The translations under genes were made by a program, and so were the position numbers. Source: Candidatus Rokuibacteriota bacterium (GTDB taxonomy: Bacteria; Methylomirabilota; Methylomirabilia; Rokubacteriales; CSP1-6). Taken from it: a stretch of 64,000 bases of DNA. Shown here in pieces: positions 45,099-63,450 of this stretch (positions are counted from its first letter, which is position 1; every line of letters starts with the position of its first letter). The stretch lies in the NCBI GenBank assembly GCA_003220435.1, contig QHSL01000068.1, positions 1-64,000 on the forward strand, written 5' to 3'. Under the pieces are notes generated by a model, which was given only the letters and a program-made list of their open reading frames with translations, was not told the DNA's origin and did no database searches.

Positions 45099-45700
45099 GC
45101 GCCGAGACGATCAGCCGGCAGGCGCGCGTCGAGCGCAAGACGAAGGAGACGGAGATCTTGCTCCACCTCAACATCGACGGCACCGGCGGCTCGAAGGTGC
45201 AGACGCCGATCCCGTTCTTCAGCCACATGCTGGAAGCGTGGTCGAAGCACGGGCTGATGGACCTCGCCGTCGACGCGCAGGGCGACGTCGAGGTGGATCA
45301 ACATCACACGGTCGAGGACGTAGGGATCGTGCTCGGGCAGGCGCTCCGCCAGGCGCTCGGCGACAAGAGGGGCATCGTCCGCTACGGGATGGCCGCGATC
45401 CCGATGGACGAGGCGCTGGTCTCGGCGACGGTGGACCTGTCTGGGCGACCCTTCCTGGTGTTCAGCGTGCCGGTCGCGCGCGCGCGGGTGTCGAACTTCG
45501 ACCTCGACCTGCTCCAGGAGTTCTTCCGGGCCTTTGCCTTCAATGCCGAGATGACGCTGCACGTGACCATGCACTACGGCCACAACCTCCATCACATCAC
45601 CGAGGCGGTGTTCAAGGCCGTCGGCCGAGCGCTGGCCGACGCAACGCGCCTGAATCCGCGCATCGCCGGCATCCTCCCCTCGACGAAGGGAAGCCTGTGA
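45095..45700 (+). CDS. hisB: Imidazoleglycerol-phosphate dehydratase
   Basis: 201 residues, monofunctional HisB. Metal-binding histidine clusters are DQHHTVEDVG and HYGHNLHHITEAVFK, and the N-terminus has RKTKETEILLHLNIDGTG. It dehydrates imidazole-glycerol phosphate. Its TGA is also the first base set of the 44-bp tandem repeat that now separates it from hisH. Confidence 0.96.
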   Translation: MSAETISRQARVERKTKETEILLHLNIDGTGGSKVQTPIPFFSHMLEAWSKHGLMDLAVDAQGDVEVDQHHTVEDVGIVLGQALRQALGDKRGIVRYGMAAIPMDEALVSATVDLSGRPFLVFSVPVARARVSNFDLDLLQEFFRAFAFNAEMTLHVTMHYGHNLHHITEAVFKAVGRALADATRLNPRIAGILPSTKGSL

Positions 45701-45785
45701 TCGCCGCAGTGCGAGCCGCAGCCGGAGGCGAGGCGAGCCGATGATCGCCGCAGTGCGAGCCGCAGCCGGAGGCGAGGCGAGCCGA
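45698..45785 (+). repeat. Tandem 44-bp repeat between hisB and hisH
   Basis: Two identical 44-bp units (45698-45741, 45742-45785), each beginning TGATCGCCG, which appears a third time at the start of hisH. Each unit holds a 30-bp core beginning TGCGAGCCGCAGCC and ending CGAGGCGAGCC, the same core as at 53339-53368 and, with a 3-bp deletion, at 63315-63450. Confidence 0.85.
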
Positions 45786-46537
45786 TGATCGCCGTCATCG
45801 ATTACGGAAGGGGCAATCTCGGCTCCGTCGAGAAAGCGTTTCGGCGAGTTGGCTGTCCCGCGGTGGTCACCCAGGACCCGCGCGCCCTCGATGAGGCGCA
45901 GGCGGTGGTGCTGCCCGGGGATGGCGCGTTTCACGACGCGATGAAGAACCTCGACCAGCTCGGCCTCCTGCCCGCGCTGCGCCGGGCGCTCGACGGCACG
46001 CGGCCCTTCCTGGGGATTTGTCTCGGCTATCAGCTGCTCTTCTCCACGAGCGAGGAGTTCGGTGAGGGCCGGGGGCTCGACGTCGTTCCGGGGGCGGTGC
46101 GCCGTCTCCCGCCCGGGCCCAAGATCCCCCACATGGGATGGAACCGCGTGGAGCACGTGGGAGACCTCCGGCTCTTCGAGGGTATCCCGTCGGACGCGCG
46201 GTTTTATTTCGTTCACTCCTTTTATCCGGTTGTAGCGGGGACCGTGAGCACGACTTTGACCGAGGGTGGCCTGACACAAGCGCGGGTGGCTCCGGATGCC
46301 CGCTCAGACCGTTTCGAGATGCGGGTGGCTCCGGACGTCCGTCCAGACCGTCTCGGCATGCCTGTGGCTCCGGACGCGCGGCCTGTGCGCATCGCCTGGT
46401 GTCAGTACGGGATCAGGTTTGCGGCGGCGATCGAGGTTGGGCGGATCTTCGCGACGCAGTTCCATCCGGAGAAGAGCCAGCGGTGGGGCCTGCGCATGCT
46501 CGAGAACTTCGCCGCGATCGTGAAGGACGGCGCGTGA
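45785..46537 (+). CDS. hisH: Imidazole glycerol phosphate synthase, glutaminase subunit, with insertion
   Basis: 250 residues against about 200-210 for the family. The class I amidotransferase triad is intact: Cys79 in FLGICLGYQ, His227 and Glu229 in TQFHPEKSQ. About 53 residues (151-203) are inserted between YFVHSFYPV and [12 protein letters not shown], which are adjacent in relatives. The inserted part contains three 13-residue repeats ([13 protein letters not shown] and variants), and its DNA matches an intergenic repeat in the tRNA cluster. The frame stays open, so a working enzyme with a surface loop is possible. It supplies ammonia to HisF. The start follows a repeat that duplicates the start codon region. 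Confidence 0.9.
46230..46392 (+). repeat. Repeat-derived insertion inside hisH
   Basis: The first 67 bp (46230-46296) align without gaps to 56913-56979 in the tRNA-Tyr/tRNA-Gly spacer at about 48 of 67 positions, with perfect blocks TTGTAGCGGG, CCGAGGGTGG and CGGGTGGCTCCG. From 46282 a 39-bp unit containing GGTGGCTCCGGA is repeated three times with drift (46282, 46321, 46360). All lengths keep the reading frame. Confidence 0.75.
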
Positions 46538-53313: not shown

Positions 53314-54050
53314 GGCGCGTGAGCGTGGTGCCGCGCAATGCGAGCCGCAGCCGCCAGCGAGGCGAGCCAACGAACACGATCGCCGTCGTCATCCCGGCGG
53401 GCGGGGTTGGTGCCCGCTTCGGGGCGCATACGCCGAAGCAGTTCATGAAAATCGGGCGCGTTCCCGTCGTGACGATGACGCTCGGCCACTTCGTGCGCCA
53501 TCCGGGCGTGGGGGCGATCGTGGTGGCGGCGCCGGAGGCGCACGTCGAGCGCACCCGCCGCGCGCTGTCGTCCCTGGCTCGCCGCGTGCCGGTCTCGGTG
53601 GTGGTCGGGGGTGGATCGCGCCAGGACTCGGTGTGGCTCGCGATGCGGGCGGTGCCCGAGCACGCCGAGATCATCGTCGTCCACGACGCGGTCCGTCCGT
53701 TGATCTCCGATCGCCTCATCGCGGACGTCGTCGGAGCCGCGGTGGAGTTCGGCGCCGCGATCTGCGCCCTGCCCGTCGTCGAGACCGTCAAGCGCGTGCG
53801 GAACGACGTGGTCGAGGCGACGCTCGATCGCTCGGAGCTCTGGGTGGTCCAAACCCCGCAGGCGTTCCGCGCCGACCTCCTCCGCGAGGCGCACGAGAAG
53901 GCGCGCCGCGACGGCGTGGTCGGAACCGACGACGCGATGCTCGTCGAACGGCTCGGGCATCCGGTGCGGGTAGTGCGCGGGCTGGTCGAGAACGTGAAGA
54001 TCACCGTACCGGACGACCTGCGGCGAGTCCGCCGAGCGGGCTCCCGGTGA
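53310..54050 (+). CDS. ispD: 2-C-methyl-D-erythritol 4-phosphate cytidylyltransferase
   Basis: 246 residues from a GTG overlapping the radA stop. The enzyme proper begins about residue 23 (NTIAVVIPAGGVGARFG, PKQFMKIGRVPVV), with HDAVRPLIS and the TPQAFR motif intact. The first 22 residues are not part of the family fold; they are largely encoded by a copy of the GCGAGGCGAGC repeat. CTP plus MEP gives CDP-ME in the isoprenoid MEP pathway. ispF follows with a 4-bp overlap. Confidence 0.94.
   Translation: MRRVSVVPRNASRSRQRGEPTNTIAVVIPAGGVGARFGAHTPKQFMKIGRVPVVTMTLGHFVRHPGVGAIVVAAPEAHVERTRRALSSLARRVPVSVVVGGGSRQDSVWLAMRAVPEHAEIIVVHDAVRPLISDRLIADVVGAAVEFGAAICALPVVETVKRVRNDVVEATLDRSELWVVQTPQAFRADLLREAHEKARRDGVVGTDDAMLVERLGHPVRVVRGLVENVKITVPDDLRRVRRAGSR
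53339..53368 (+). repeat. Single copy of the GCGAGGCGAGC repeat in the 5' end of ispD
   Basis: 30 bp, TGCGAGCCGCAGCCG...CGAGGCGAGCC, identical to the hisB-hisH core at 27 of 30 positions. It is translated as part of the non-conserved N-terminal extension (NASRSRQRGEP). Confidence 0.75.
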
Positions 54051-56912: not shown

Positions 56913-56979
56913 TTGTAGCGGGTGCCACGAGGTCGGCTCGAACCGAGGGTGGGCTGAGAAGGATACGGGTGGCTCCGTA
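56913..56979 (+). repeat. Repeat in the tRNA-Tyr/tRNA-Gly spacer, shared with hisH
   Basis: 67 bp filling almost the whole spacer (56913-56985). It aligns without gaps to 46230-46296 inside hisH. It contains TTGTAGCGGG, CCGAGGGTGG and CGGGTGGCTCCG. Confidence 0.7.
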
Positions 56980-60206: not shown

Positions 60207-60248
60207 GGTGCGCGCGCAGCGACGCGGACGGACGGAGCCGCACGCACC
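60207..60248. repeat. Imperfect hairpin in the rplD-rplW gap
   Basis: GGTGCGCGCG (60207-60216) and CGCACGCACC (60239-60248) pair with one mismatch around a 22-nt loop. The 94-bp gap is unusual for this operon position. No gene is visible. Confidence 0.4.
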
Positions 60249-60296
60249 TACATCAGGCCACCCTCGGTCCAGGCTGGCCTCAAGGACACCGCCACA

Positions 60297-60590
60297 ATGA
60301 CCCGCTCGGCACGCGAGATCCTGATCCGCCCGCTCATGACGGAAAAGAGCATGCGCCAGAAGGAAGAGCAGAACACCGTAACGTTCCGAGTCCGCCCGGA
60401 CGCCAACAAGGTCGAGATCCGCACCGCGGTCGAGACCGTGTTCAACGTCAAGGTGTCGTCGGTGCGCACGGCGACGTTCGAGGGGAAGCTGAAGCGGATG
60501 GGGCGCGCCGAGGGACGGCGGCCGAACTGGAAGAAGGCGGTCGTAGCGCTGGCGCCCGGCCACAAGATCGAAATCGTCGAGGGAGCCTAG
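60297..60590 (+). CDS. rplW: 50S ribosomal protein L23
   Basis: 97 residues. [18 protein letters not shown] and [27 protein letters not shown] match L23, which lines the tunnel exit and docks trigger factor and SRP. Confidence 0.97.
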
Positions 60591-63308: not shown

Positions 63309-63314
63309 TGGTAG

Positions 63315-63450
63315 TGCGAGCCGAGCCGGGGGCGAGGCGAGCGGTTCAACGGATCGGTCAGAAGGTGCGAGCCGAGCCGGGGGCGAGGCGAGCGGTTCAA
63401 CGGATCGGTCAGAAGGTGCGAGCCGAGCCGGGGCCGAGGCGAGCCCTTCA
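63315..63450 (+). repeat. 51-bp tandem repeat array between rplP and rpmC
   Basis: Units start at 63315, 63366 and 63417; the first two are identical over 51 bp and the third is partial (about 34 bp) and diverged at its end. Each carries TGCGAGCCGAGCCGGGG and GCGAGGCGAGC, the same core as at hisB-hisH with a 3-bp deletion, plus a linker containing GGTTCAACGGATCGGTCAG. It occupies most of a 175-bp gap in the S10 operon. Confidence 0.85.

Follow-up and report, generated by a model that had tools for sequence, protein, structure and literature searches.

The question raised by the window (the whole stretch of 64,000 nt analysed here) is why its hisH gene encodes an unusually long loop, and whether the extra residues came from a repeat that is also found between genes. 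The ORF translates with zero internal stops and gives 207.5 bits against the TIGR01855 profile (cutoff 105.4), and its nearest named relative, from a Candidatus Rokuibacteriota MAG, is 79% identical, which suggests a Rokuibacteriota lineage. Between YFVHSFYP and AWCQYG there are 55 residues; 16 family relatives show no visible insert, and their loops at this place are of 15 and 17 residues in two of them and shorter in the others (24 loops were measured together and three of five further ones separately; hisH of G003 is cut). The distance from VHS to QFHPE is 82 residues in the window HisH, against 36 in 25 and 37 in one of the 26 homologues measured (28 were aligned, most of them from other phyla, and the regular expression missed two), so that the net gain is about 46 residues. 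An earlier sequence-only reading had proposed a 53-residue insertion in frame; the insertion is real and keeps the frame, and the size was put slightly too high. HisH aligned from other phyla lacks the extra residues, as the insertion reading requires. The same reading had described the Cys-His-Glu triad as unbroken, and Cys79, His227 and Glu229, which we take to be the catalytic triad, are indeed invariant in a 29-sequence alignment. In the AlphaFold prediction for HisH alone, residues 162–197 have confidence below 50 and most of the core has high confidence, which fits a flexible loop.

The first 67 bp of the insert had been likened to the spacer between tRNA-Tyr and tRNA-Gly, and this likeness holds at 48 of 67 positions (72%) without gaps, when the best of 100 letter-shuffled 67-mers reached 40 of 67 anywhere in the window. 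BLAST of the HisH region against its own genome gave 34 matches including itself, that is, 33 other places. The aligned copies define a 66-bp unit, in which the core CCGAGGGTGGCCTGAG is highly conserved and the core GGGTGGCC is nearly invariant. A sequence-only model built from 31 copies, the HisH copy among them, found 80 matches in the 5.44-Mb genome; the insert is therefore a copy of a dispersed repeat, as had been suspected, and many further copies of the 67-bp segment were found when they were sought. The earlier reading had overlooked one more copy in the window, its third, which abuts the start of an rplW-like gene. Some copies in this genome are arranged in tandem arrays with a period of 65–66 bp. 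Arrays lying outside confident genes are found in G000, the genome of the window (C30:15789-16113, C103:35060-35361 and C123:29698-30137), and at L148 (G002 C67); those of C30, part of C103 and G002 C67 have the 65–66-bp period and are possible variable-number markers. Including the own genome, 26 of 59 genomes were positive for the element (25 of 34 family relatives and 0 of 24 genomes outside the family), where 88 candidates were scored in each relative and the counts per genome are lower bounds.

We consider it very probable that the insert in HisH represents a single copy of a small, dispersed element that has been spreading in one Rokuibacteriota-like family and has been tolerated because it can be translated. 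Three settings can be demonstrated from the sequences: in frame within variable loops, linkers and gene junctions; flush with start codons; and directly after the CCA ends of two tRNAs (window 56913 and C37). The relevant features are collected in Table 1. The names of the rplD-, rplW-, LivF-, EamA-, HemW- and hydrolase-like genes are putative and were read from the sequences.

Table 1. Coordinates of the hisH locus, of element copies in the window and of loci with special arrangements
Feature	Position	Strand	Basis or remark
hisH (250 aa) with embedded element	45785..46537	+	Translation, TIGR01855 profile
Enlarged HisH loop, residues 149–203	46229..46393	+	8–11 residues in 14 of 16 relatives without visible insert
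66-bp element copy in hisH, frame VVAG...TEGGL	46230..46294	+ (sense)	Model match 58.8 bits, E 2.6e-15
39-bp (13-codon) tandem repeat, 2.5 copies	46282..46377	+	Begins within right part of the 66-bp element
Element copy in the tRNA-Tyr/tRNA-Gly spacer	56913..56977	+	Base 1 directly after the tRNA-Tyr CCA end
Element copy between rplD-like and rplW-like ORFs	60233..60297	-	Position 1 is the A of the rplW-like ATG (ATGA)
30-codon ORF through the 60233–60297 copy	60208..60300	+	Stops at TGA, 4-nt overlap with the rplW-like ATG
ATA-start loci, among others	L027, L125, L032, L130, L193, L205, L209
Gene-joining loci	L011:2-1999, L221:818-3001, L014:1218-2585, L220, L104:328-1878

A second dispersed repeat (GTGCGAGCCG..AGCCGG.GGCGAGGCGAGC) has 19 matches in the genome and lies at 45698–45794, 53334–53368 and 63313–63445 of the window. 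At the hisB/hisH junction it takes the form of a 44-bp tandem in which the opening bases of hisH (TGATCGCCG) recur, so that this copy also is located at a start codon.

For comparison within the genus, 163 copies were taken from loci of nine genomes; this sample is non-random, the relatives being represented by their best-ranked matches together with hisH, uvrA and a few chosen loci. Of the 142 copies whose left end is intact, 51 are flush with the start of a coding ORF that runs on the opposite strand, a start codon of this kind consisting of element base 1 and two flank bases. The next base after the start codon is A in 49 of the 51 (ATGA or GTGA), against 27 of the 59 window genes according to our own gene calls (Fisher p = 4e-9), and the dinucleotide preceding the element is pyrimidine-purine in 116 of the 142. 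An upstream gene with coding signal reads through the element in 14 of these 51 cases, always in the frame ending at the overlapping TGA and never in either of the other two, and these genes gain about 20 or more residues as a tail. Almost no upstream stop codons were found in a search to the right of the element, one reason being that some upstream genes run through it. Through the remaining 37 flush copies no upstream coding gene runs, which we count against the explanation preferred here. Among 49 near-complete flush copies, the TGA frame is open in 48 and a possible start lies at least 15 codons upstream in 45, so that a small coupled ORF is possible at most of these sites. The 14 read-through junctions indicate that some copies regarded as intergenic are probably translated, and in 133 near-complete copies the three reverse-strand frames are open in 116, 130 and 122, respectively. 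The view that a non-coding element had become coding in hisH is thus not upheld.

Flush copies are exemplified by MutS-MutL, by a COX15/CtaA-type and a UbiA-type gene, and by a lipoyl-synthase-like gene with NADH dehydrogenase chain 3. Eight congeners have a mutL match, and seven of them carry the element at mutS-mutL; mutL of G004 lacks it. MutS continues through the element to an overlapping stop, which is TGA in G000, G003 and G008 and TAA in G002 and G005, where ATA occupies the start position. The picture is mixed, since MutS of G006 ends before the element and that of G007 ends 27 nt before the mutL start. Among the six element-free relatives whose MutS ends were read, those of G018, G019, G009 and G016 lie within about 10 residues of KWQ/DWQ, and that of G013 lies a little beyond this; the MutS tail of G014 is long and unrelated, which adds to the mixed picture. 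ATA in place of ATG was observed at the start position in 14 of the 142 copies, nine of them with coding sequence following, and also at mutL of G002, G005 and G006 (L339, L340 and L341). This suggests either AUA starts that may be kept by coupling or another true start.

The frequency and exactness of these placements raise the reading that the element serves its host in regulation or translation initiation and is selected at starts, its copies within genes being accidents of spread. The 51 copies exactly at starts, the ending of all 14 read-through genes at the coupling stop and the nearly invariant core are in its favour. Congeners differ, however, in the presence of the element at the same gene (UbiD and UvrA, described below, and mutL of G004), the genes served are functionally unrelated and tRNA ends are occupied too; moreover, a search of the window and six loci at the Rfam gathering score returned tRNAs only, with no family for the element, and no covarying structure was detected. 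We therefore hold this reading to be rather unlikely.

Of 32 aligned copies, 19 have an intact GTAG close to their left end (and seven have GGAG), and GTAG-tagged REPs are known within genes including uvrA, according to passages of PMC3733652; the element could accordingly be regarded as a REP-class repeat moved by a RAYT. Three observations speak against this and make it improbable. The unit is 66 bp rather than 20–40 bp. A conserved stem-loop was not found: RNAalifold gave nine pairs for the element, none with double changes and without covariation, and the folding z-score is -1.4 for a near-consensus copy and +1.5 for the HisH copy, so that the term palindromic is unsupported for the 66-bp unit. 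In the consensus, a clear terminal inverted repeat was not found either, while the copies in C29 and C53 have an inverted flanking piece, as judged by eye; in both (L013 and L014, respectively) the left flank repeats part of the element's right end in inverted orientation. Lastly, the Y1 transposase is held to move REPs, and in the own genome and 58 relatives a transposase search restricted to this family found Y1_Tnp/RAYT in 0 of the 9 genus genomes and in 0 of the 20 genomes with at least 20 copies; it was found in six element-poor or element-free family relatives and, in the control rings, in 5 of 14. The failure of this search to turn up a transposase and the want of a clear terminal inverted repeat also tell against the preferred explanation.

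Copies within genes are not restricted to hisH. A search for other in-gene copies, which had been thought of as a check on the insertion, succeeded: 8 of the 80 copies in the own genome lie inside or between ORFs with an open frame and coding signal on both sides, where coding was called by a codon-usage model trained on the window, not from peptides. The eight hosts, identified with Pfam and NCBIfam, are HisH, UvrA, a UbiD/menaquinone-type decarboxylase, an ABC exporter, a D-glutamate-cyclase-like protein, an ArsN1-type acetyltransferase, a LivM-LivG fusion and a UGSC junction. Across the genus sample, 34 of the 163 copies passed a coding-score cutoff of 0.2 and 25 passed 0.35; only the latter were counted; their ten gene locations include PheT and a thiolase/OB-fold junction, which are not among the eight hosts above. 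ORFs scoring 0.2–0.3 on one or both sides (C30, C132 and C125 of the own genome, C67 of G002 and C328 of G008) were considered doubtful and left uncounted. In the own genome, all four sense copies share one frame (VxAG...TEGGL...) and all four antisense copies share another (typically EPARASLRPPSVQAGL). Exceptions occur in relatives, namely, the GLUCM-like gene (G002 and G004), LivM-LivG (G001) and the thiolase junction (G002), and are counted against the preferred explanation. The idea of a single reading frame for all in-gene copies had to be given up, as these occupy two frames in each direction, of which one forward and one reverse frame dominate. At 17 loci of other genera, 7 of 23 copies were scored as in frame; two of these are a tandem pair in HisH of G018, and the other five are in other ORFs, one of them with a weak element match (19.5 bits). 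The element was also seen to join neighbouring genes into a single ORF: LivM-LivG in two species and in different frames, UGSC with the next gene in two species and in opposite orientations, and a thiolase with an OB-fold protein.

Closely related genomes allow the same sites to be compared with and without the element. In the UbiD gene it is present in G000 and G003, and the site is empty in G008, G007, G002, G005, G006 and G004; by eye, about 20 bp are replaced at the empty site, which is not the picture of a clean insertion and gives no proof of target duplication. The UvrA loop before the conserved FSEKLACA contains the element in six genus members and a remnant in G001, and the element is not visible in G004, in G007 or in the other genera aligned. 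A different insert is present in the same loop of uvrA in G013 and G019 (L163 and L164), and the loop may be either a hot spot or simply permissive. In the ABC-exporter linker, seven of the eight congeners with the gene have the element and none is visible in G001, where the gene is cut; it is antisense in G000, G005 and G002, one sense copy is found in G004, and G003, G008 and G007 have two or three copies, so that one to three tandem units occur overall. At the UGSC site, the copies of G000 and G007 are in opposite orientations, as if the core had been flipped between inverted ends.

In HisH, the insert is present in G000 and in G004–G008, with a loop of 51 residues in G008. G002 has only 10 loop residues, yet it is nested among the carriers in the HisB-HisH-HisA tree (support 99 for the genus clade), and its short loop is therefore best read as a deletion. 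G001, whose best HisH match is a different copy at 47% identity, and G003, whose hisH is divided between two contig ends exactly at the loop, are gaps in this comparison. HisH of G018 also has an insert that matches the element model as a tandem pair, and the HisH proteins of G011/G032 and of G023 resemble those of the carriers in amino-acid likeness only. Since these carriers are scattered on the tree, repeated insertion at a permissive loop and an old insertion followed by many losses are both possible. Over the first 26 codons of the insert, dN is 0.18 and dS is 0.22 (15 pairs), against 0.06 and 0.60 in the preceding 60 codons, which indicates that its amino acids are under little constraint. 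The low dS relative to the flank hints that other copies could have replaced the HisH copy later, by re-insertion or conversion, rather than its stemming from one old event.

The sequence-only reading had taken a 39-bp tandem repeat to be the rest of the insert; the tandem is real (period 39, 82% matches), and it begins inside the element rather than after it. This array, the variation of loop length among relatives and the other short repeats seen in the right half of the loop in several congeners are what could be cited for an ordinary low-complexity expansion by 39-bp slippage with a chance likeness to intergenic sequence. For the insert as a whole we judge such an expansion very improbable: the first 65 bp match the element model (a copy that was in the training set of the model), BLAST of the region alone gives the 33 other places, and the 66-bp unit occurs in unrelated genes and spacers as well. 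For these 65 bp, slippage is refuted by the genome-wide copies, and it is tenable for the right half only. Collapse of repeats into genes during metagenome assembly, to which the draft state of the genus genomes (140–820 contigs) and the split hisH of G003 might point, is hardly credible, because in several species whose genomes were assembled separately the same sites of HisH and UvrA carry related in-frame inserts of different lengths.

Returning to the dispersed translatable element, its history may be pictured as follows. It would be a 66-bp unit, sometimes in tandem and with a looser right end, that is non-autonomous and presumably mobilized in trans by some enzyme, and a TCA/TGA context would be preferred to some degree. 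Insertions preserving reading frames or translational coupling would survive selection. A sense copy would have entered the surface loop of HisH in the ancestor of the genus or earlier and then decayed almost neutrally, with internal repeats differing by species (39-bp units here), and would have been largely deleted in G002. Selection alone could be enough for the frame bias, and the ATGA/GTGA context suggests a target preference as well. Both the translation and the mobility of the element are what we infer from sequence comparisons. A further proposal, which in our judgement has an even chance of being right, is that this is a translation-transparent mobile element, selected to stay open in nearly all frames, that combines MIRU-like stop-start insertion, in which its own frame restores the coupling and extends the upstream protein by a tail, with RPE-like protein embedding and gene fusion.

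If this proposal is true, such an element would keep supplying an uncultured lineage with new protein loops, C-terminal tails and gene fusions. One short family there combines protein embedding, gene fusion and stop-start coupling, in a lineage distant from those of the known examples, and among the congeners the same genes are found empty, occupied, occupied in the opposite orientation or occupied in tandem. The question of how mobile DNA becomes protein is thereby testable by comparison, with insertion, tolerance, decay and loss to be followed at UvrA, UbiD, MutS-MutL and HisH. In the literature that could be searched, no such element was found for Rokubacteria, and in the one paper containing both "Rokubacteria" and "repeat element" the two stand in unrelated contexts.

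Among known systems, the RPEs of Rickettsia, with which the HisH insert had been compared at the outset, are found in frame within protein genes (parts of PMC10969869, PMC2229807 and PMC3767692), and portions of PMC3767692 and PMC10969869 describe Rickettsia as unusually rich in repeats of this protein-embedded kind. Like these and the WPEs of Wolbachia, the 66-bp element is a small dispersed repeat that lies between genes and in frame in conserved protein genes, and PheT, an RPE host gene in the relevant part of PMC3767692, is among its hosts. The comparison is apt for behaviour and fails for the palindrome: RPEs are about 100–150 bp and strongly palindromic, whereas the 66-bp unit has no strong palindrome, and its host lineage is unrelated to Rickettsiales. 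Exact stop-start placement is another difference, unmentioned for RPEs in the available text of PMC3767692, PMC10969869 and PMC2229807. Mycobacterial MIRUs occur at start codons, with an element ORF coupled to the gene by a 4-nt overlap (PMC12548453, in a passage citing Supply 1997), and the present element resembles them in start-codon placement and 4-nt ORF overlap, a likeness of placement; it differs in belonging to another phylum and in occurring also inside proteins and at tRNA ends. With GTAG- and CGTC-tagged REPs, whose intragenic copies in other bacteria have been described in uvrA and other repair genes and in tRNA synthetases according to a section of PMC3733652, it shares in-frame copies in uvrA; the GTAG near one end of 19 of 32 copies may be a further likeness. 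It differs from them in having no 20–40-bp stem-loop unit and no RAYT (Y1_Tnp) in the element-rich genomes searched, and in lying often at starts, whereas REPs are mostly downstream of coding regions (abstract of PMC3733652). The element has the start-codon placement of MIRUs and the in-frame embedding of RPEs, and lacks the palindrome of RPEs and the RAYT of REPs; it may be a distinct class of its own.
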